From Shinella kummerowiae (GTDB lineage: Bacteria; Pseudomonadota; Alphaproteobacteria; Rhizobiales; Rhizobiaceae): a stretch of DNA of 64,000 nt. Shown here piece by piece: positions 4,697 through 15,051 of the stretch (positions within the stretch are counted from its first letter, which is position 1; the number at the start of each line of letters is the position of its first letter). The stretch covers positions 62,001-126,000 of the forward strand of contig NZ_WUMK01000005.1 in the NCBI RefSeq assembly GCF_009827055.1, read 5' to 3'. The position numbers and the translations under genes are program-made. Below the pieces are notes generated by a model that was not told the origin of the DNA, made no database searches, and worked only from the letters and a program-made list of their open reading frames with translations.

Positions 4697-5830
4697 ATGA
4701 GTCTTAGCTGGCGTTTTTCCGCCCTTGCAGACCGGCATCGGGCACTGGGATCGAACCTCGAGGACTGGAGCGGCATGGGAACCGCCTGGACCTATGACAA
4801 GGACATCTATGAAGAGCATATCGCCGTGCGCACCAAGGCCGGCATCATGGATGTGTCGGGCCTGAAAAAGGTTCATCTCGTCGGCCCGCATGCCATCGCC
4901 ATTCTCGAATACATCACCACCCGCGACATGACGAAGGTCTATCCCGGTAAGTCGGTCTATGCCTGCATGCTCAACGAGCGCGGCCATTTCACCGATGATT
5001 GCATCGTCTATCGAACCGGCCCGAATTCCTGGATGCTGGTGCATGGCTCCGGCTCCGGCTTCGAGGAAATCGTCAAGCAGGCGCAGGGCCGCAATTGCGC
5101 GGTGCTGTTCGATGACGACCTGCACGACCTGTCGCTGCAGGGGCCGCTTGCCGTCGATTATCTCGAAAAATACGTGCCCGGCATCCGCGACCTCAAATAT
5201 TTCCACCACATGCAGACGACGCTGTTCGGCGCCCCGGTGATGATCTCGCGCACCGGCTATACCGGCGAGCGCGGCTACGAAATCTTCGTGCGCGGCCAGG
5301 ATGCCGGCATGGTCTGGGACCGGATCGTCGACGAAGGCAGGGCGATGGGTATCATCCCCGTCTGTTTCAGCGTTCTCGACATGCTGCGCGTCGAAAGCTA
5401 CCTGCTGTTCTACCCCTACGACAATTCGCAGATGTACCCCTTCGCCAACGAGCAGCCCGGCGACAGCCTGTGGGAACTCGGCCTCGATTTCACCGTCAGC
5501 CCCGGCAAGACCGGTTTTCGCGGTGCCGAGGAACATGCGCGCCTCAAGGGCAAGGAACGCTTCAAGATCTTCGGCCTGCTGGTCGAGGCCGATGGACCGA
5601 CCGACCTCGGCGACGAGGTCTGGGCCGGCGACAAGAAGGTGGGTGTCATCACCTGCCCGTCCTATTCGAAGCTGACCAACCGCTCGATGGCGATCATGCG
5701 CGTCGACGTCCCCTATGCCGTGCAAGGCACCAAGCTCGAAGTGAAGGGCAAGACGGTCAACGCGCCTGCCATCGCCCATACGATCACCTTCGACGATCCG
5801 AAGAAGACGAAACGGACGGCGCAAGGCTGA
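4697..5830 (+). CDS. dmmD: GcvT-like THF-dependent subunit of dimethylamine monooxygenase cluster
   Basis: The 377-residue protein belongs to the aminomethyltransferase (GcvT/YgfZ) family that binds tetrahydrofolate. Family blocks include SLQGPLAVDYLEK, SRTGYTGERGYEIF and GLDFTVSPGKTGFRG. It has no FAD domain, unlike sarcosine or dimethylglycine dehydrogenases. The four genes from here match the order dmmD-A-B-C described for dimethylamine monooxygenase in marine alphaproteobacteria. By analogy the protein would accept formaldehyde released on dimethylamine demethylation onto THF, feeding folD and purU immediately upstream. The ATG is preceded by GAGGAT. It could also act as a general aminomethyltransferase, so the name rests mainly on context. 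Confidence 0.8.
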   Translation: MSLSWRFSALADRHRALGSNLEDWSGMGTAWTYDKDIYEEHIAVRTKAGIMDVSGLKKVHLVGPHAIAILEYITTRDMTKVYPGKSVYACMLNERGHFTDDCIVYRTGPNSWMLVHGSGSGFEEIVKQAQGRNCAVLFDDDLHDLSLQGPLAVDYLEKYVPGIRDLKYFHHMQTTLFGAPVMISRTGYTGERGYEIFVRGQDAGMVWDRIVDEGRAMGIIPVCFSVLDMLRVESYLLFYPYDNSQMYPFANEQPGDSLWELGLDFTVSPGKTGFRGAEEHARLKGKERFKIFGLLVEADGPTDLGDEVWAGDKKVGVITCPSYSKLTNRSMAIMRVDVPYAVQGTKLEVKGKTVNAPAIAHTITFDDPKKTKRTAQG

Positions 5831-5840
5831 GGATATCGGC

Positions 5841-6446
5841 ATGCTCGTACAAGGGATCAAAAGCAGGCCGGAATATAAGGGGCTCGACATTGATCCCCAT
5901 GCCAAACGCCACCTCTTCGTCCTTGAGGGCGAAGGGGCGCAGGCACTGATCGACGAGGTCGGGGCCAAGGGCCGCGACTTCCTGGCAAAGTCGGAAATCC
6001 TCTATCTGGCGGCGGGCGCGGCCCCCAAGGCCTATGACGTAACGCTTTCGGCGCTCTCGCCGGATGTTTTCTGGCAGGCCTCAACACTTCAACCACTTCT
6101 GTTCCGCCTGCGTGCCTGTCTTGAGCAGGCCCGCATGGGAACGCGGCTCTCCATCGCCGGCACCGAGGGCTTCATCGGCCAGATCATGCAGGTGGCGATC
6201 GAATACGGCATCGACTACCATTCGATCCACACCGAACATCGCGGCTCGATGGCGCGCCGGGTGCAATGCGTGCACTGCAAGGGCATCACCGACAATGTGA
6301 CGACCAGCCCCTTTCCCTGCAGTCATTGCGGACTGCCGCTTCTGGTGCGCGACCATTACTCCAGGCGGCTTGGCGCCTTCCAGGGCGTCAATATCGATGC
6401 AGAAGAACCGGGTACAGCCCCAGAACCTGAGGAGATGTTCCCGTGA
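5841..6446 (+). CDS. dmmA: Dimethylamine monooxygenase small subunit (DmmA-like)
   Basis: This 201-residue protein resembles the small DmmA-like component of the haem-dependent N-demethylase. The N-terminal half has no named motif. The C-terminal part carries two CxxC pairs (C143/C146 and C160/C163) that look like a zinc-ribbon or rubredoxin-like knuckle. A conserved-looking DHYSRRLGAFQGVNID segment follows, and then an acidic tail. It starts 10 bases after dmmD and its stop overlaps the GTG start of dmmB, so the subunits are translationally coupled. The assignment depends on gene order plus the Cys pattern. Whether the cysteines bind zinc or iron cannot be told from sequence. Confidence 0.75.
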   Translation: MLVQGIKSRPEYKGLDIDPHAKRHLFVLEGEGAQALIDEVGAKGRDFLAKSEILYLAAGAAPKAYDVTLSALSPDVFWQASTLQPLLFRLRACLEQARMGTRLSIAGTEGFIGQIMQVAIEYGIDYHSIHTEHRGSMARRVQCVHCKGITDNVTTSPFPCSHCGLPLLVRDHYSRRLGAFQGVNIDAEEPGTAPEPEEMFP

Positions 6447-7408
6447 GCCTCAATACCGACATGCCTGTCCGGGTTGCGGCGGTGACGCAGGTGACCGATC
6501 TCGTCAAGCGCTTTCGCTTCGAACGCCTGGACGGTCACCCCATGCCGTTTTTTTCCGGCGGCGCCCATGTCGTCGTCTCGATGAACGACAACGGCCTGTT
6601 GCGCCGCAATCCCTATTCGCTGATGTCCAACCCCGACGACAACAGCGCCTATGAAATCAGCGTGCTCCGGGTTCCGAATTCCCGCGGCGGCTCGATCTTC
6701 ATGCACGAACAGGTCCGCCCCGGCGATCAGCTGACCGTCAGCCAGCCGGTCAACCTCTTCGCGCCGGATCATCGCGGCCGCAAGCACATCCTGATTGCCG
6801 GCGGCATCGGCATCACGCCGTTCATCGCCATGATGGAACAGTTCAGCCGCGACAACATCGCCTTCGAACTGCACTACGCCATCCGCTCGCGCTCGCACGG
6901 CGCCTACTGGCAGCAACTGCTCGATCGCTATGGTCCGCGGCGCATCAAGATCTATGTCGACGAGGAAAAGACATTCATCCCCGTCGCCGAGATTGCCGAC
7001 AACCAGCCGCTCGGCACGCATCTTTATGTCTGTGGGCCGGCCGGCATGATCGATGGCGTGCTGATGACGGGGCTGAAAGCCGGCTGGCCGAAGGAAAACT
7101 TGCATTCGGAGCGGTTCCTTGCGCCGCCTGCCGGCCTGCCGTTCCAGGTCTTCCTCGAAAGATCCAACATCCACATGACCGTGGGCGAGCACCAGAGCAT
7201 CCTGGAAGCGGCGGAGGCCCATGGCTGCGATGCCCCTTACATGTGTCGCGGCGGTGCCTGCGGCCAGTGCGAGACGGAAGTGCTCTCCTGTGATGGCACG
7301 CTGCAGCACAACGATATCTACCTGTCGGACGAGGAAAAGGCGTCCGGCAAGAAGGTCATGATCTGCGTGTCGCGGTTCAAGGGCCAGCAACTCGTTCTTC
7401 AATTGTAG
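6443..7408 (+). CDS. dmmB: Dimethylamine monooxygenase reductase, FNR-type with C-terminal [2Fe-2S]
   Basis: This 321-residue phthalate-dioxygenase-reductase-type flavoprotein has RRNPYSL (flavin site, residues 54-60), GGIGITPF (NAD(P)H site, 120-127) and CGPAGM (197-202). It ends in a plant-type ferredoxin domain with C268, C273, C276 and C308 as [2Fe-2S] ligands. It would pass electrons from NAD(P)H to the haem oxygenase component encoded by dmmC. The start is GTG 6443, with GAGGAG eight bases upstream and a four-base overlap with the dmmA stop. The domain order (flavin, nucleotide, ferredoxin) is typical of oxygenase reductases, and the neighbourhood fixes the partner. Confidence 0.9.
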   Translation: MSLNTDMPVRVAAVTQVTDLVKRFRFERLDGHPMPFFSGGAHVVVSMNDNGLLRRNPYSLMSNPDDNSAYEISVLRVPNSRGGSIFMHEQVRPGDQLTVSQPVNLFAPDHRGRKHILIAGGIGITPFIAMMEQFSRDNIAFELHYAIRSRSHGAYWQQLLDRYGPRRIKIYVDEEKTFIPVAEIADNQPLGTHLYVCGPAGMIDGVLMTGLKAGWPKENLHSERFLAPPAGLPFQVFLERSNIHMTVGEHQSILEAAEAHGCDAPYMCRGGACGQCETEVLSCDGTLQHNDIYLSDEEKASGKKVMICVSRFKGQQLVLQL

Positions 7409-7426: not shown

Positions 7427-8467
7427 ATGACCATCACGTTCAGGAGCGAAACGTTCCGCGACGACTTCACCTTCCGCAACAGCCTCTACAACATCAAACG
7501 CTTTCCCTTCCCCTTCGATCGTGACGAATACATGTATTCGGTCAACATGGAGCCGCATATCCGCGGCAAGGCGGACAGCGTTTTCGAAAACCTGATCGAT
7601 GTCGACGAGCACTATGTCGCCGAGATGCAGGACCGAGCGCTGGTGCTCAAGGAGGACCCGCTGCGCTGCCAGGCGCTGCCGCATATGATGACGGCGCAAT
7701 GGGACGTGCTCGAGCTTCTGATGGAGCATCAGGCGCAGGACTATCCTGAGCACTTCACACTCGAAAAGAACGGCGACCGCTGGCGCTGGGTCAACCGGCC
7801 CATGGGCATCGACGACACCTTCACCTTCGGCGATGCGGCAACACTTCCCTATCCGCCGATGGAATATATTACCCGGCAGGCGCAGGGGGATTTCTGCATC
7901 GTCGACCAGCGCGACAACAATCTCTGGATGGATGCCGGCATGGTCACCACCCAGGCCGACTGGTCGTTGGATTTCGACATCGGCATGAATTTCATGGAAT
8001 GGCATGGTCCCGTGCCGCTTGCCCACCAAATCGGCGTGTTCGACCGGGCGCTGAAATTCCTGCTCAACCTGCAGCAGGGCAAGCCGACCCGCCGCCTCAA
8101 CTGGACAATGACGGTCAATCCGCGGCTCGATACATCTCCGGAAAACTATCACAAATGGGGACCGGATCGCACGACCGTCACGCCGGAGAATGTCGGTGAC
8201 AAGATGCACCTGCGCGTCGAATTGCAGAGCCTATGGCGTCTGCCGCGGTCCAACGCCATCCTCTTCGTCATTCGCTGCTACCTGATCAGCCTGAGTGAAC
8301 TGGTGACCGTCCCCAAATGGGGCCGCCGCCTGCCGCGCGTGCTGAAAAGCCTGCCGCCGGAGATCGCCGATTACAAAGGCCTGACCCGCAACCGCCCGAT
8401 CATGATCGACTGGCTGGCGAAGTATGACGACGGGGCGCCGACGAGTGCGGGGATTTATCCGGATTGA
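7427..8467 (+). CDS. dmmC: Haem-dependent oxidative N-demethylase subunit (DUF3445/HODM family)
   Basis: The 346-residue protein matches the DUF3445 (haem-dependent oxidative N-demethylase, alpha-subunit-like) family by its overall pattern. Characteristic stretches include DEHYVAEMQDRA, FTFGDAATLPYPP, ITRQAQGDFCIVDQR and the long LRVELQSLWRLPRSNAILFVIR block near the C-terminus. Members use a PAS-like fold to hold haem and oxidatively demethylate dimethylamine to methylamine plus formaldehyde. It lies 18 bases after dmmB and is followed 45 bases later by tmm. I cannot identify the haem ligand with certainty. Subunit lettering follows the published dmmDABC order. Confidence 0.83.
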   Translation: MTITFRSETFRDDFTFRNSLYNIKRFPFPFDRDEYMYSVNMEPHIRGKADSVFENLIDVDEHYVAEMQDRALVLKEDPLRCQALPHMMTAQWDVLELLMEHQAQDYPEHFTLEKNGDRWRWVNRPMGIDDTFTFGDAATLPYPPMEYITRQAQGDFCIVDQRDNNLWMDAGMVTTQADWSLDFDIGMNFMEWHGPVPLAHQIGVFDRALKFLLNLQQGKPTRRLNWTMTVNPRLDTSPENYHKWGPDRTTVTPENVGDKMHLRVELQSLWRLPRSNAILFVIRCYLISLSELVTVPKWGRRLPRVLKSLPPEIADYKGLTRNRPIMIDWLAKYDDGAPTSAGIYPD

Positions 8468-8512: not shown

Positions 8513-9850
8513 ATGACCAGAGTAGCCGTCATCGGCGCGGGGCCTTCGGGTCTTGCCCAATTGAGAGCCTTCCAGTCCGCCGCCCAGAAGGGTGCGGAAA
8601 TCCCCGAAGTGGTCTGCTTCGAAAAGCAGGCCGATTGGGGCGGGTTGTGGAACTACACCTGGCGCACCGGGCTCGATGAATATGGCGAGCCGGTCCATGG
8701 CAGCATGTACCGCTATCTCTGGTCGAACGGTCCCAAGGAATGCCTGGAATTTGCCGACTATTCCTTCGAGGAGCATTTTGGCAAGCCGATCGGCTCCTAC
8801 CCACCCCGCGCCGTGCTGTGGGACTACATCAAGGGCCGTGTCGAAAAGGCCGATGTGCGCAAGTGGGTTCGCTTCTCGACCCCGGTCCGCATGGTGCGGT
8901 TCGACGAGGCGACCAAGAAATTTACGGTGACGGCGCACAATCGCGTCGAGGATCGGATGTATGACGAGGAATTCGACTATGTCGTCGTCGCCTCCGGCCA
9001 CTTCTCGACGCCGAACGTTCCCTATTTCGAAGGCGTGAAAACCTTCGGCGGCCGCGTGCTGCACGCCCATGATTTCCGCGATGCGCTGGAGTTCAAGGAC
9101 AAGGACGTATTGATCGTCGGCCGCAGCTATTCTGCCGAGGACATCGGTTCGCAGTGCTGGAAATACGGAGCGAAATCGGTGACCACGAGCTACCGCTCCA
9201 AGCCGATGGGCTTCAAGTGGCCGGAGCGTTTCGAGGAGCGGCCGCTGTTGCAAAAGCTCGTCAACAAGACGGCTCATTTCGCCGACGGATCGACCAAGGA
9301 GGTCGATGCGCTGATCCTCTGCACCGGCTATCTTCACCACTTCCCGTTCCTGCCGGACGACCTGCGCCTGAAGACCGCGAACCGCCTGTGGTCCGACAGC
9401 CTCTACAAGGGCGTCGTCTACGAGGACAATCCGCAGCTGATGTATATCGGCATGCAGGACCAGTTTTATACTTTCAACATGTTCGACGCCCAGGCCTGGT
9501 ACGCCCGCGACGTCATCATGGGCCGCATCGGCCTGCCCTCGAAGGAGGAAATGAAGGCGCATTTCGACAAATGGCGCGCCCGCGAGGAAACGCTCGAGGA
9601 TGCCGAGCAGATGATCTGGTTCCAGGGCGACTACGTCATCGAACTACTGGAGGATACCGACTATCCGAAGTTCGATGTCGAGGGCACCAACAAGACCTTC
9701 ATGGAATGGGAGCACCACAAGGCCGAGAACATCATGGGCTTCCGCGACAACGCCTACAAATCGCTGATGACCGGCACGATGGCGCCCAAACATCATACGC
9801 CCTGGCTGGAGGCGATGGACGATACGCTCGAGGTCTATCTGAAAAACTGA
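8513..9850 (+). CDS. tmm: Trimethylamine monooxygenase (flavin-containing monooxygenase)
   Basis: Tmm is a class B flavin monooxygenase that oxidises trimethylamine to TMAO using NADPH and O2. The 445-residue product has the FAD motif GAGPSG at residues 8-13, the FMO signature [11 protein letters not shown] at 178-188 (FxGxxxHxxxF) and the NADPH site GRSYSAED at 203-210. The [20 protein letters not shown] region and the overall length match bacterial Tmm rather than Baeyer-Villiger enzymes. It is the last gene of the dmmDABC-tmm run and is followed by a hairpin at 9872-9899. Related FMOs act on other amines, but the linked tdm gene makes trimethylamine the natural substrate. Confidence 0.93.
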
Positions 9851-9871: not shown

Positions 9872-9899
9872 GCCGAAGGCCACGTCCCTGGTCTTCGGC
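9872..9899 (+). terminator. Rho-independent-type hairpin after tmm
   Basis: GCCGAAG at 9872-9878 pairs with CTTCGGC at 9893-9899, with an inner CC/GG pairing and a short loop. The run CATACTTTTAAG follows, so the U-tract is short. It probably ends the dmm-tmm transcript ahead of the PAS gene. Confidence 0.6.
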
Positions 9900-9978: not shown

Positions 9979-10578
9979 ATGGATTTTCTGAGCAGCGTTC
10001 TCGGTCGCATGAATGGTTTTCTGTATCGATGCCGGGCGGACGAGCATTACACGATGCTGGAGATGACCGACGGCATCCAGCGGATCTTTGGCTATCCCGT
10101 CGACGAGATCGTCGGCAATCGTGTGCGCACCTTCACCTCCATCATGTGCGAGGAAGACGTGCCGGCGATGGACGAGGTGGTCGGCAAAGCGTTGGAAGGT
10201 CGCACCGACTGGACGCTGGAGTACCGCATCCGCCACAACAAGGGTCACTATCTCTGGGTCACGGAAACCGGCGGTGGTGTCTGGGGCGCTGATGGGGAAC
10301 TGCTCTATCTCGAAGGCAGCATCGTCAACATCGAGTCCCTCTACCAGCGCATCGACGAACAGACCGCCGACATGCGCGCGACCGCGTCACGAACCGCCGA
10401 GATCCTGCATTCCCTGCGCTCCCTGAAACTGCTCGCCGTCAACGCCGGCATCGAGGCGGCGCGGGCCGGCACGGCCGGTGCCGGCTTCGCCGTCCTCGCC
10501 TCGGAAATGCGTGCGCTTGCCAATGATTCCGAAGCGGTCGCCCGGCAGATTGCGACGGCACGGGGCAAGTCGAGTTAA
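9979..10578 (+). CDS. Soluble PAS protein with truncated chemoreceptor signalling hairpin
   Basis: The 199-residue protein has no membrane segment. Residues about 10-115 form a PAS-3 type fold (IFGYPVDEIVG, then EYRIRHNKGHYLWVTETGGG). A short helix leads into a remnant of the methyl-accepting chemotaxis signalling tip (LLAVNAGIEAARAG, GAGFAVLASEMRALA). Normal receptors have hundreds of residues of coiled coil; here only the CheA/CheW-contacting hairpin region survives and the protein stops soon after. It sits between tmm and the convergent tdm gene, leaving only 27 bases to the tdm stop. It could be a minimal cytoplasmic receptor, or a PAS protein that modulates chemotaxis or amine gene expression. 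The function is inferred from domain content only. Confidence 0.75.
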   Translation: MDFLSSVLGRMNGFLYRCRADEHYTMLEMTDGIQRIFGYPVDEIVGNRVRTFTSIMCEEDVPAMDEVVGKALEGRTDWTLEYRIRHNKGHYLWVTETGGGVWGADGELLYLEGSIVNIESLYQRIDEQTADMRATASRTAEILHSLRSLKLLAVNAGIEAARAGTAGAGFAVLASEMRALANDSEAVARQIATARGKSS

Positions 10579-10605: not shown

Positions 10606-12975
10606 TCAGGATCGCGGCTTGAGCTTCTGCGGATCGTAGTGCGCAAACGGCACGATCTTCGCCGGCAGCCGCTTCTGCTGGCCGTCGAGTTTGCCGATTT
10701 CCACGTTGGTGCCGATCTCCGAATGCAGGGCATCCATCCGGGCCAGCGCGATCGTCTTCCTCAGGAGCGGCGACCGCGTCGAGCTCGTCACGACGCCAAC
10801 CTGTGCGCGGCCGATATGCACCGTGTCGCCATGGCCGACGGCGTCGTTGGCGTCGATATCGAGGCCGACCAGCTTGTAGCGCGGGTTTTCCTTGCGCTTG
10901 ATCAGCGCCTCGCGGCCGATGAAGTCCTCGGTCTTCGACTTCAGAGGGACGGTGAAGCCGATGCCGGCCTCGAAGGGATCGGTCTGGTCGGAGAAGTCGT
11001 AATGGGCAAATACCAGCCCCGCTTCGATGCGCACCATGTCGAGCGCTTCCAGCCCCATCGGCTTCAGTCCATGCTTCTGGCCGGCCTCCCAGACGGCATC
11101 GAACACCGCAAGGGCATCCTTGGGATGACAGAAGATCTCGTAGCCGAGTTCGCCCGTATAGCCGGTACGTGAGACGACGACCGGTGCGCCTTCAAAATGA
11201 CCGATGCGGCCGACGGCGAAGCGGAACCATTCGAGTTCGCCGATCGACGGCTGCGCCGGTGCTGTCCAGATGATCTCCTTGATGATCTCGCGGCTCTTCG
11301 GCCCCTGGACGGCGAGGTTGTGCATCTGGTCGGTGGACGACCGCACCCAGGCCTTGTAGCCCATTTTCTCCGCCTGCTCGCGCAGCCAGATGCCGCTGAC
11401 ATCATCGCCACCGATCCAGCGGAAATTGTTCGCGCCCAGCCGGAACACCGTGCCGTCGTCGATCATGCCGCCATTCTCGTAGCACATGGCCGTGTAGACC
11501 ACCTGCCCGGGCGAGAGCTTACGGATATCGCGGGTCACGCAATATTGCAGCAACGCCTCCGCATCCGGCCCCGTCACCTCGAATTTGCGCAGCGGGGAGA
11601 GATCCATCACCACGGCGTTTTCACGGCAGGCCCAGTACTCCTCGATCGGCCCCTCGTTGTTGAAGCGGTTGGGCAGCCAGTAGCCGCGATATTCCACATG
11701 GTTGCGGGTCAGGCCGGAGAAGCGTGGATGGAAGGCGGTTTCCTGGGTCATTTCGGGCTCTGCATCGGGGGTCATTCGGATGGCGACGGCGCGCGAGAAT
11801 GTCTCTTTGTCCGAATAGGTGCGGACATGGATATCGGTCGGATCCCAGCCGTTCGCCGCATCGATATCGTCCGGGCAGGACGACGAGACGCAGACGAGAT
11901 CGGTCAGCGCGCGCATCAACACATAATCGCCCGGCCGCGACCAGGGTTCGTCGAGATAGAGCTGGTTATGATGGTCGACATTGGTGTTGTAGAAATAGTT
12001 GAGCGCTTCCCAGCCCTTGCGCGGCGCAATGCCATAAGGGGCCAGCGCATGGTTGAAATTATCCGTGCAGTTGACATGCCCCGGATAACCCATGTCGTCG
12101 TAGTAGCGCGAATTGCAGGCGGTGGCGAAGGCATCGTGTCGCCCGACCGTATCCTGCACGATCTCCACCAGCGGCTCGAAATCCCGGTCGAACGCTTTCG
12201 ATGGCAGCCCCGGCATCGGGTAACTGCGCCCGAGAAGCGTGCGTGTCACCGTCGCATCGAGCGCGAGATCCAGCCCCTTGTCGACCTTGCGGGCGGAAAA
12301 GGCCTGGAAATCCGTGCATTGCCGGCCTGAAACGTCGATGACCTGAATGAACTCGCCGGCCCGCACGAAATAGGCGGAGGCGCGGGCCGCTGGAATGCGC
12401 AGGTCCTGGATCGGATCGGCCATCGGTTCCGGCAGCATGTCCGCATAGGCCCGTTCGATTGTGGAGCGGGCGACGCGCAGTTCGAGCGCCGTTGCGGTGT
12501 TCTGTGCTTCCGCGTCCATCGGTGGCGCCGGAGCTGCGACGATCAGCATGCCGTCGAGTGCTATCGCCAACTCTGCCGAAGCCCCTGGCGACGAGCTTTC
12601 ACCGAACAGCACCAGCGCCTGTGCGTTTGCGGGGTCGACATTGCGCCGCTTCAACGCGGCGAGTGTCCGCCGTGCGCTGTCTTCGTCCCGTCCGAGGATC
12701 TCCAGAAGCCCGTCCGCGGGCCGCGAAAAGGCTGCGCCCAAACCGGCTGCGTTGAACCGGCCGCTGGCATCGACGAAGCTCACTTCGCAGAGCTGCCCGC
12801 CTTCGACATCCTTGATGGTGACGCGGTCGCCGGCAGCGACCTTCACCACTGTGGTGCCCCGCCCCTTGACGCGGTAGCGCTCGACGCCGGCCGGTAGCGC
12901 CGGAATACCCGGCCGCAGAATGGTGCTTGCTCTTGGCGGCACCAGGGTGCCTGCAAAACGTCCGGACGTATCCAT
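10606..12975 (-). CDS. tdm: Trimethylamine N-oxide demethylase (aldolase)
   Basis: Tdm splits TMAO into dimethylamine and formaldehyde and passes the formaldehyde to THF. The 789-residue protein is a fusion. The N-terminal DUF1989 domain has cysteines at about 220, 287 and 303, the last two in CNSRYYDDMGYPGHVNC, as candidate zinc ligands. The C-terminal GcvT-type THF domain (after about residue 400) has AVQGPKSREIIKE and SRTGYTGELGYEIF. I start at ATG 12975 because GGGAG lies five bases upstream; the open frame extends to a TTG at 13038 without a ribosome site. The gene converges with the PAS protein gene and is divergent from the APC permease. This step links tmm to dmmDABC. Confidence 0.93.
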   Translation of the reverse strand: MDTSGRFAGTLVPPRASTILRPGIPALPAGVERYRVKGRGTTVVKVAAGDRVTIKDVEGGQLCEVSFVDASGRFNAAGLGAAFSRPADGLLEILGRDEDSARRTLAALKRRNVDPANAQALVLFGESSSPGASAELAIALDGMLIVAAPAPPMDAEAQNTATALELRVARSTIERAYADMLPEPMADPIQDLRIPAARASAYFVRAGEFIQVIDVSGRQCTDFQAFSARKVDKGLDLALDATVTRTLLGRSYPMPGLPSKAFDRDFEPLVEIVQDTVGRHDAFATACNSRYYDDMGYPGHVNCTDNFNHALAPYGIAPRKGWEALNYFYNTNVDHHNQLYLDEPWSRPGDYVLMRALTDLVCVSSSCPDDIDAANGWDPTDIHVRTYSDKETFSRAVAIRMTPDAEPEMTQETAFHPRFSGLTRNHVEYRGYWLPNRFNNEGPIEEYWACRENAVVMDLSPLRKFEVTGPDAEALLQYCVTRDIRKLSPGQVVYTAMCYENGGMIDDGTVFRLGANNFRWIGGDDVSGIWLREQAEKMGYKAWVRSSTDQMHNLAVQGPKSREIIKEIIWTAPAQPSIGELEWFRFAVGRIGHFEGAPVVVSRTGYTGELGYEIFCHPKDALAVFDAVWEAGQKHGLKPMGLEALDMVRIEAGLVFAHYDFSDQTDPFEAGIGFTVPLKSKTEDFIGREALIKRKENPRYKLVGLDIDANDAVGHGDTVHIGRAQVGVVTSSTRSPLLRKTIALARMDALHSEIGTNVEIGKLDGQQKRLPAKIVPFAHYDPQKLKPRS

Positions 12976-13266
12976 CTCAGCTCCCGCCCCGCGCACAATC
13001 GTTTCGATGCCCGGAAGGGCCGCGTTGTGCACCGGCAATATGGCAAAACTATCCTACGGGAGGCCCCGGAAAGTAAAGAGAGACTTGACCGAGAAGAAAA
13101 AAAATTCACTATGAGAATAAGTTGCGGCCGCGAAATGGACGACGGGAACAGGTGGTGACACTGCGAAAACGCAGGCGCCATCCAGCGAAGAAGCCGCAGC
13201 GAGAACCATCATAATGGGGACGCGCGCAAACGCGCTTCACGGCAAAACTGGTCGAGGAGACTGTTT
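12976..13266. promoter_or_regulatory. Divergent promoter region between tdm and the APC permease
   Basis: These 291 bases contain no credible gene. On the + strand TTGACC at 13085-13090 and an AT-rich TATGAG-like hexamer near 13110 could be a sigma70-type promoter for the permease. An A-rich tract (13097-13106) lies between them. A perfect GCGCG-CAAA-CGCGC hairpin occupies 13222-13235, just before the permease ribosome site, and could affect its translation. No clear operator for a known amine regulator was seen. Confidence 0.4.
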
Positions 13267-15051
13267 ATGGCATCTATCGTTGAAACCGAGGGATCGGCGG
13301 CCTCGGGCACGGGGCTGATTCGTGCGCTGGACTGGAAAGGGGCATTCTGGGTCGCCGCCGGCGTGCCCCCACTCGTGCTGTTTTCCATCGGCGGCATTGC
13401 AGGCACGACAGGCAAGCTCGCCTTCGTGGTCTGGATCATTTCCATGGTGATGGGCTTCCTGCAATCCTTCACCTACGCCGAAATCGCCGGCATGTTCGGC
13501 AACAAATCGGGTGGCGCCTCGATCTACGGCGCCACCGCCTGGTTGCGCTACTCGAAATTCATCGCGCCGCTCTCGGTGTGGTGCAACTGGTTCGCCTGGT
13601 CGCCGGTGCTGTCGCTCGGCTGCGCCATCGCGGCGGGTTACATCCTCAATGCCCTGTTTCCCATTCCCGGCGCCACGTCGCCTGCCGTCATGGAATGGGT
13701 CACGGCCAATATGGCAACGCTGACGGCCGAAAGCCCGCGCGTCGTCGAATGGCTCGCCGCCAATGCCGGCAAGACGCCGCAGGACGCTATCTCCGCCCTG
13801 CTGTCGGCCGATGCGGTTGCGGCCTTGACGCCTGCCATCCGCAACTGGTCGCTGGTCACCTTCGACATTCCCTTCCTCGCCACGGCAAACCTGAACGCCA
13901 CTTTCGTCATCGGCGGCATCCTGATGCTGATCATCTTCGCGATCCAGCATCGCGGCATCCAGGGAACGGCGAACGTTCAGAAATGGCTCGCGCTCATCGT
14001 TCTGCTGCCGCTGCTGGTCATCGGCCTCTACCCGATCTTCTCCGGCCAGATCGACAGCGCCAACGTTACCAATCTTGTTCCCCCGACAGCCGGCTATTCC
14101 GGCATCGATGGCGTGTGGAGCAATGGCGGCTGGACGCTGTTCCTCGGTGGTCTCTATATCGCCGCCTGGTCGACCTACGGCTTTGAAACCGCCGTCTGCT
14201 ATACCCGCGAATTGAAGAACCCCAAGACCGACACGTTCAAGGCGATCTTCTATTCCGGCCTTCTCTGCTGCCTATTCTTCTTCCTCATTCCCTTCACCTT
14301 CCAGGGCGTTCTCGGCCATGCGGGCATGCTCGCCCCCGGCATCGTCGATGGCACGGGTGTCGCGGAAGCCTTGGCCAGCCTCGTCCATGGCGGTCAGATC
14401 ATCACGCAGATCCTCGTCCTCCTGATGATCATGGCGCTGTTCCTCGCCATCATGACCGCAATGGCCGGCTCTTCGCGCACCCTCTACCAGGGCTCGAAGG
14501 ACGGCTGGCTGCCGAAGTACCTTGATCACGTCAACGAACACGGCGCGCCGACCCGCGCCATGTGGACCGATTTCGGCTTCAACCTTATCCTGCTTGCCAT
14601 CGCCTCCGACGTGGCCGGCTACTTCTTCGTTTTGGCCGTCTCCAATGTCGGCTACATCATCTTCAACTTCCTCAACCTCAATGCCGGCTGGATCCACCGC
14701 ATGGATTCCGGCCATATCCCGCGCCCCTGGAAAGCACCGACCTGGCTGATCGGCCTCAATACCGTGCTTGCCTTCGTCAACGCGCTGTTCCTCGGCGCCG
14801 GCGCGAAAGTCTGGGGCTATTCCAACGCGCTCTGGGTCGGCTTCATCTTCGCCGCCCTCATCCTGCCGGTCTTCGCCTATCGCCACTATGTGCGCGACGG
14901 CGGAAAATTCCCGGTGGGCGCCATGGAGGACCTCGGCCTCGTCGGCCAGGATCTGGGCGTCAAGAGAGCGGGCATCCTGCCCTATGCAGCGCTTGCCGCC
15001 GGCCTTGCCGTCGTTCTCGCCGCAAACGCCTACTTCCAGCTCCCGGCCTGA
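13267..15051 (+). CDS. APC-superfamily permease, candidate methylated-amine transporter
   Basis: The 594-residue protein is an amino acid/polyamine/organocation-type permease with about 12-14 hydrophobic segments. The first pair carries FSIGGIAGTTGK, where APC carriers bind the substrate backbone. Residues roughly 135-200 form a long hydrophilic insert between membrane segments, which is unusual for the family. It is divergent from tdm and follows an ATG with GGAG upstream (gaggagactgttt). TMAO uptake is often done by the ABC system TmoXWV, which is absent from this window. I therefore infer that this carrier imports trimethylamine, TMAO or another cluster substrate, but the specificity is not readable from sequence. 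Confidence 0.75.
   Translation: MASIVETEGSAASGTGLIRALDWKGAFWVAAGVPPLVLFSIGGIAGTTGKLAFVVWIISMVMGFLQSFTYAEIAGMFGNKSGGASIYGATAWLRYSKFIAPLSVWCNWFAWSPVLSLGCAIAAGYILNALFPIPGATSPAVMEWVTANMATLTAESPRVVEWLAANAGKTPQDAISALLSADAVAALTPAIRNWSLVTFDIPFLATANLNATFVIGGILMLIIFAIQHRGIQGTANVQKWLALIVLLPLLVIGLYPIFSGQIDSANVTNLVPPTAGYSGIDGVWSNGGWTLFLGGLYIAAWSTYGFETAVCYTRELKNPKTDTFKAIFYSGLLCCLFFFLIPFTFQGVLGHAGMLAPGIVDGTGVAEALASLVHGGQIITQILVLLMIMALFLAIMTAMAGSSRTLYQGSKDGWLPKYLDHVNEHGAPTRAMWTDFGFNLILLAIASDVAGYFFVLAVSNVGYIIFNFLNLNAGWIHRMDSGHIPRPWKAPTWLIGLNTVLAFVNALFLGAGAKVWGYSNALWVGFIFAALILPVFAYRHYVRDGGKFPVGAMEDLGLVGQDLGVKRAGILPYAALAAGLAVVLAANAYFQLPA

Follow-up and report, generated by a model that had tools for sequence, protein, structure and literature searches.

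Between the genes for trimethylamine monooxygenase and trimethylamine N-oxide demethylase, an open reading frame with an ATG start (mini-chemoreceptor gene, 9979..10578, + strand) encodes a protein of 199 residues in which domain searches recognized a PAS domain and the tip of a chemoreceptor. We propose, giving the reading about an even chance of being right, that this protein is a soluble, non-adapting mini-chemoreceptor that takes a place in the receptor arrays and signals some effect of methylated-amine oxidation within the cytoplasm; cells may, in other words, steer by how well methylated amines are being digested. The window is the whole stretch of 64,000 nucleotides that was analyzed, and the name mini-receptor is used below for the protein and for its relatives of the same form.

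Architecture of the mini-receptor

The PAS_3 domain (residues 28-114; 10060..10320, + strand) was recognized at E 3.1e-16, with 59.8 bits against a cut-off of 25.6, and a PAS fold was returned for it in the structural model, while the MCPsignal match (residues 150-193; 10426..10557, + strand) scored 47.2 bits against a cut-off of 34.6 and aligned only positions 50-93 of the 172 of the domain model. The signalling part amounts to about 80 residues and matches the hairpin tip alone, and among the 25 MCPsignal matches in the host genome this was the only one confined to the tip. Neither a transmembrane stretch (highest 19-residue Kyte-Doolittle mean 1.02) nor a Tsr-type methylation motif was found in the sequence, and no DNA-binding or enzymatic domain emerged from the domain and profile searches. 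The methylation (adaptation) helices are absent, the arms ending at the equivalents of Tsr residues ~344 and ~424 (with an offset of 226 to the Tsr numbering). The first reading of this DNA, made from the sequence only, had described a 199-residue PAS protein reduced to the hairpin tip and devoid of membrane and methylation helices, a description borne out by the PAS_3 and tip-limited MCPsignal matches and by the lack of a membrane stretch and of the motif. Since the methylation region that characterizes classical MCPs was not found, the protein is chemoreceptor-like rather than a full member of the MCPs. The length classes known for chemoreceptors, from 24H to 64H, are all longer than the mini-receptor arms of about five to six heptads.

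The full-length structural model, built on 32 sequences, contained a confident PAS part (block means 86-94 for residues 11-120) with the standard PAS fold (Z ~16 to PAS structures), and residues 119-198 were modeled as one low-confidence helix (57-72). The model of the tip alone (residues 117-199) predicted a hairpin (10330..10572, + strand) of helices 118-162 and 164-198, its arms 45 and 35 residues long, with a mean pLDDT of 93 and an alignment of 49 sequences that included ordinary receptors (MCPs). Its best match was chain 6s1k_E, which is Tsr, the receptor of the E. coli core signalling unit (TMq 0.94, rmsd 0.9 A), and the span of the hairpin in Tsr numbers is close to the protein interaction region, residues 340-441 according to the available part of the source (PMC6954272). 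The predicted hairpin is supported by homology, and the full-length model gives it no independent support.

The PAS domain itself gave few indications on its ligand, as a sequence search of solved structures with the PAS alone returned only two generic PAS chains, and fold searches with the whole model were filled by PAS and LOV entries and uninformative in this respect. A flavin or haem state had initially been put forward as what the domain senses; such a cofactor found no support, because the RHPDM stretch of Aer, which we take to be an FAD-binding signature, is absent. An FAD-PAS of the Aer type was accordingly rejected, the window protein having CEEDV where E. coli Aer has RHPDM; a Trp aligns.

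Family members and features of the tip

Among 44 named relatives, 41 join a PAS domain to a tip in a protein of 192-240 aa (L093, the shortest, is cut by the end of its contig) and three, of Hyphomicrobium type and 46-50% identical, consist of the PAS only at 140-151 aa, with no tip motif in the loci examined (L083, L087, and L089). In a search of 80 loci, those read among L107-L139 were tips of ordinary MCPs. Over 11 pairs of Rhizobiaceae orthologues, dN/dS lay between 0.04 and 0.18 in the PAS and between 0.005 and 0.22 in the tip, and both parts are under purifying selection. That the protein is the decayed remnant of a full-length chemoreceptor, as the mere ~80 residues left of the signalling domain might suggest, is scarcely credible and already contradicted by dN/dS ratios well below 1 in both halves, by the 41 relatives of the same architecture and size, and by a shared tip signature unlike that of full receptors; a decayed MCP fragment was therefore rejected on size conservation and dN/dS. 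A phage origin was likewise discarded, the phage collection having yielded nothing at E up to 1e-6.

The PAS subfamily (YRCRND...YTM) recurs in longer signalling frames across Pseudomonadota (L018, L026, L027, and L196), several of them GGDEF-like by eye. An even sample of 297 genomes of the order (hereafter the order draw) gave matches in 25 genomes, namely 16 with PAS plus tip (one of them, G111, without its 5' part), seven with the PAS in longer frames of 328-490 aa, of which four were read and three appeared GGDEF-like by eye, and two with tips of larger receptors (G085 and G059). Matches were found in 65 genomes of a second draw of 398, most of them PAS domains in frames of ~500-1700 aa, and some matches in its family f87 extended over both domains, PAS and tip, within frames of 336-493 aa. 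A 257-aa PAS-plus-tip frame of Sphingobium fuliginis (L106), 30% identical and with an ordinary QTN tip, may have arrived at this design independently, and its divergence kept it out of the family counts. Two more short proteins have a chemoreceptor tip at their end and no PAS-like N-terminal part (L147 8403-8840 and L152 7777-8526), the former in a Thalassobium genome devoid of Che proteins.

For the comparison of tip residues, 56 mini-receptor tips were collected with the motif NA-x-[IVLM]-EA, similar patterns having served in the 80-locus search, so that the conservation of N381, A382, E385, and A386 is partly by construction; about 20 of the 56 are close Rhizobiaceae kin. Of 50 distinct full-length tips, 44 had the QTN triplet at Tsr positions 374-376; none of the 56 mini-receptor tips had it, position 375 being L in 55 of them and position 376 K, R or S in 55. 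As this shared signature differs from that of full-length tips, the mini-receptor tips constitute, judged by their residues, a coherent subclass and not random truncations. Three strong contacts between receptor and CheW, R394, E402, and R404, are given in the accessible part of PMC6954272, and the window protein, with A, E, and R at these positions, keeps two of the three. Across the 56 tips, E402 was kept in 51, position 404 held R in 23 tips and K in 10, and only 14 had R at position 394; because R394 is mostly lost and QTN is absent, the packing of these receptors may differ from that of ordinary ones.

Such features could also be those of an array modulator with no dedicated amine signal, whose short tip would insert between full receptors to tune or insulate their output and whose PAS would sense the general redox or energy state. 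The presence of the interaction tip together with the absence of the methylation region, the changed residues in the trimer-forming part and the recurrence of the PAS subfamily in longer, unrelated signalling frames all agree with this explanation, which we nonetheless regard as improbable, since it leaves unexplained the link to tmm, tdm and dmm genes and the co-occurrence with tdm presented below.

Surroundings of the gene in the window

The gene begins 128 nt after tmm, encoding trimethylamine monooxygenase (8513..9850, + strand; NF058570, 855 bits, cut-off 675), and is convergent with tdm, encoding trimethylamine N-oxide demethylase (10606..13038, - strand; NF053776, 1254 bits, cut-off 1100), whose coordinates are those of the open reading frame, inside which the true start may lie. 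With both flanks above the curated cut-offs, the initial placement of the gene between tmm and tdm stands. A TMAO permease gene, tmoP, follows (13267..15051, + strand; NF053774, 840 bits, cut-off 690), and the whole set sits behind an operon of the dimethylamine monooxygenase type (dmm). Domain matches and annotation identified there an aminomethyltransferase (GcvT-type) of the amine cluster (4697..5830, + strand), a homologue of a pRL11 protein annotated as DmmA family (5841..6446, + strand; tblastn and pRL11 annotation), a reductase with DmmA-like, FAD and 2Fe-2S domains (6443..7408, + strand; domain matches) and a HODM_asu-like protein of the dimethylamine monooxygenase operon (7427..8467, + strand; domain match, with a DUF3445 homologue in pRL11).

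RNA folding of the spacer between tmm and the mini-receptor gene revealed a terminator-like hairpin of 11 pairs (9872..9899, + strand), and stems of different sequence formed in the other five orthologous spacers folded. Since stems are formed by the tmm-to-mini-receptor spacers of all the orthologues folded, the mini-receptor gene is likely transcribed separately from tmm. A promoter scan around the gene, a kind of scan uninformative for rhizobia, returned 0 sites.

Linkage to methylated-amine genes

The survey of PAS-plus-short-MCP proteins beside tmm and tdm in other genomes, proposed along with the sequence-only reading, gave a positive outcome both in plasmids and in diverged alphaproteobacterial relatives. 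Nineteen of 20 close named orthologues (L060-L079, 71-91% identity) lie directly after tmm, 18 of these with tdm downstream and one (L070) on a contig that ends first; in the uncultured Rhizobium of L078 (10001-15674) the mini-receptor gene is instead convergent with the sarcosine oxidase genes soxG, soxA, and soxB. Plasmid records with a mini-receptor match at E up to 1e-20 numbered 98, of which 94 were from Rhizobium, and those with a Tmm match 139, of which 95 were from Rhizobium and 22 from Acinetobacter. Among the matches listed in both searches, the mini-receptor gene was seen by eye to follow tmm on the same strand at 103-216 nt in 32 of 32 records. No Acinetobacter was found among the 98 mini-receptor plasmids, though 22 plasmids of this genus carry tmm. 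In R. leguminosarum and R. etli plasmids, minCDE lies between the mini-receptor gene and tdm or directly after the mini-receptor gene (L140 12813-14690; L187 6814-8643; L188 3856-5661). On a plasmid of Burkholderia multivorans, genes for a TetR-type regulator and an aminotransferase flank one for a PAS protein of 40% identity (L186 8956-9636), with no tmm or tdm annotated in the stretch shown.

The diverged alphaproteobacterial members were 31 (34-46% identity; 15 from the locus search, 11 from the order draw, four from the family of Thalassobium and one from the 398-genome draw), and six of them, one a pseudogene, lie beside tmm/tdm or a dmm operon. The order tmm, mini-receptor, tdm was met in a groundwater proteobacterium (L080, met again as G478), the gene comes just after the dmm operon in Litoreibacter (L096) and G632 and just before it in G354 and Thalassobium (L097, the pseudogene), and in G117 tdm is no more than 3 kb away, on the far side of a full-length MCP gene; G632 and G478 come from the 398-genome draw, which was made without regard to amine genes. 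Assuming a rough 1% per genome, the chance of at least six linked members in 31 is ~6e-7, and with intact copies only (5 of 30) ~1e-5. The linked members are spread over at least four distinct positions in the tree, across well-supported branches (L078 being labeled there as amine-linked though it is beside sarcosine oxidase and not tmm, and L097, G354, and G632 being left out), and the link therefore arose repeatedly or is old and was often lost.

In the flanks examined of the other 25 members, some of them short (L091 and L093), tblastn with the window proteins found no homologue of tmm, tdm or dmm genes, and the neighbours of unlinked relatives were diverse by Pfam. A PAS-MCP gene is located 14 nt upstream of the Billgrantia copy, but adjacency to full MCP genes at two loci (Billgrantia and G117) is no more than chance could give.

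Co-occurrence with tdm

In the order draw, in which 65 of the 297 genomes have tdm, this gene was present in 15 of the 16 carriers of PAS plus tip versus 50 of the 281 other genomes, an association with p values of 4e-10 by genome, 6e-4 by genus and 0.006 by genus without the window's family; since Fisher tests ignore kinship, the values by genus are the more reliable ones. Matches were found in 82 of the 149 genomes of the family of Thalassobium; among the matches listed only five genomes had one spanning PAS and tip (one of them broken), all five among the 38 genomes with tdm (p 9e-4), and the other matches listed were tips, mostly in larger frames, behind which weaker short members may be hidden. 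In a partly overlapping set chosen by similarity, tdm was found in 16 of 20 alphaproteobacterial entries, and of the four without it L102 and G103 are one species and L091 has a HODM protein of the dmm type instead. Both PAS-only Hyphomicrobium genomes tested carried tdm, and none of the seven gammaproteobacterial carriers did.

The postulated link to the amine genes is upheld in so far as it recurs in diverged relatives and the mini-receptor co-occurs with tdm at the level of the genome, also among relatives not linked to it. Relatives are not restricted to amine clusters, for most of the 31 diverged members lie elsewhere and the seven gammaproteobacterial carriers have no tdm. The latter, together with the 25 of 31 relatives away from amine genes, would fit an independent chemoreceptor-like gene that came along with the amine cluster by chance. 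We deem this neutral neighbourhood very improbable in view of the linkage in at least four places of the tree, of the low chance of at least six linked members in 31, and of the co-occurrence with tdm by genus, with or without the window's family. That tmm, tdm, dmm, and sarcosine oxidase genes all occur as neighbours points to a signal they would have in common, for instance formaldehyde, the C1-folate flux or altered redox conditions, more than to any single amine.

Relation to the chemotaxis machinery

The genome of the window protein (G000) has seven CheW-domain matches. In the order draw CheW was present in 15 of 16 carriers versus 211 of 281 other genomes (p 0.07), and the mini-receptor was found in 14 of 45 genomes with both CheW and tdm, one of 181 with CheW and without tdm, one of 20 with tdm and without CheW and none of 51 with neither. 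Among tdm-bearing genomes its dependence on CheW reached p 0.018 by genome and vanished by genus (p 0.41). Within the family to which the window belongs, CheW and the mini-receptor are both missing from seven genomes of one genus that have tdm and both present in four of two other genera, a pattern that represents one or two events at most.

CheW was detected in 24 of the 27 genomes tested individually, the exceptions being G181, G312, and Thalassobium. Neither CheW nor CheA was matched in G181 (86% complete) and G312, where the copy is intact; both have full-length MCPs, and missing sequence is therefore the likely explanation. Thalassobium sp. R2A62 gave no match to CheA, CheW or a full-length MCP, and its copy beside the dmm operon (L097 10001-10600) is interrupted by an in-frame stop within the PAS and is altered in the tip. 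A broken copy in a genome without Che proteins is what dependence on arrays predicts, in one case, and the idea that the family works in genomes without these proteins was set aside for this reason, though it may still hold for other short tip proteins of that genome.

Besides metabolism-dependent chemotaxis, the sequence-only reading had envisaged a repurposed regulator of the amine genes, that is, a PAS-tip protein that acts through a partner outside the flagellar arrays and controls either the amine enzymes, in their expression or activity, or an alternative chemosensory pathway. The mini-receptor does travel with catabolic genes and not with che genes, its tips are devoid of QTN and mostly of R394, and other short tip proteins occur in a genome without CheA and CheW. 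On the other hand, it has no DNA-binding or enzymatic domain, CheW is found in most carriers while the Che-less Thalassobium copy is broken, and transcription of the TMA pathway in Ruegeria is assigned to TmaR and TmoR in the available part of PMC13390433, which says nothing of rhizobia. This non-taxis role appears to us unlikely, and we lean towards metabolism-dependent chemotaxis because 15 of 16 order-draw carriers have CheW and the copy of the Che-less genome is a pseudogene.

Proposed mode of action and known systems

According to the chemotactic reading, the PAS would sense a cytoplasmic consequence of methylated-amine oxidation, be it the redox state, formaldehyde or C1 flux, or the amine itself, and the helix that leaves it would lead straight into a hairpin equal to the protein-interaction region of ordinary receptors. 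Needing neither HAMP nor membrane or methylation helices, a mini-receptor dimer could then enter arrays of receptors, CheW, and CheA and bias the kinase. Adaptation of its own would be out of reach for a protein that has no methylation helices, and its neighbours in a mixed array could adapt in its place; in this scheme we infer the dimer, the array binding, the ligand, and the effect on swimming. More tentatively, and with somewhat less than even confidence, we suggest a minimal class of receptors made of one intracellular PAS and the interaction tip only, working in ordinary arrays without an adaptation region and dedicated in Alphaproteobacteria to methylated-amine catabolism, in which the sensor travels with the pathway and not with the che genes.

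The tip's Foldseek hits included two other soluble receptors, 3g67 of Thermotoga and YfmS of Bacillus, which differ from the mini-receptor in their longer chains (212-213 and 286 residues, respectively) and are not known to have a PAS of its kind. AerC of Azospirillum, the cytoplasmic PAS chemoreceptor to which Aer is a membrane-bound cousin, is also soluble and joins PAS to a tip, but it possesses a full signalling domain, whereas the mini-receptor has one PAS, no HAMP, and no methylation region. The available part of PMC13401364 describes two FAD-binding PAS domains in AerC and, in CetA/CetB of Campylobacter, another small separate PAS protein that feeds a chemosensory array. CetB is an isolated PAS relying on CetA, a form resembled by the Hyphomicrobium PAS-only relatives, while the mini-receptor carries its own tip. 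A sensory link to methylated amines, as proposed here, is provided by the amine-binding dCache_1AM receptors (PMC10104139, available part), in which Cache domains bind amines directly in place of a cytosolic PAS. TmaR and TmoR are, like the mini-receptor, encoded with methylated-amine genes (PMC13390433, same part), but are transcription regulators of the AraC and GntR types, and the mini-receptor has no DNA-binding domain. Full-text literature searches, read as titles and starts of abstracts, returned no description of a PAS-plus-tip protein beside tmm/tdm, which is weak evidence of absence as most subscription papers are outside their coverage.

The proposed role, if true, would show how little of a chemoreceptor suffices to enter an array, would offer a natural test of signalling without methylation, and would tie swimming behaviour to the way trimethylamine and TMAO are turned over in soil, in the rhizosphere, and at sea. 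Workable strains that carry the mini-receptor gene include R. johnstonii 3841 (as RL_RS32520) and R. etli CFN 42 (as RHE_RS34900), where its annotation says no more than PAS domain-containing protein.
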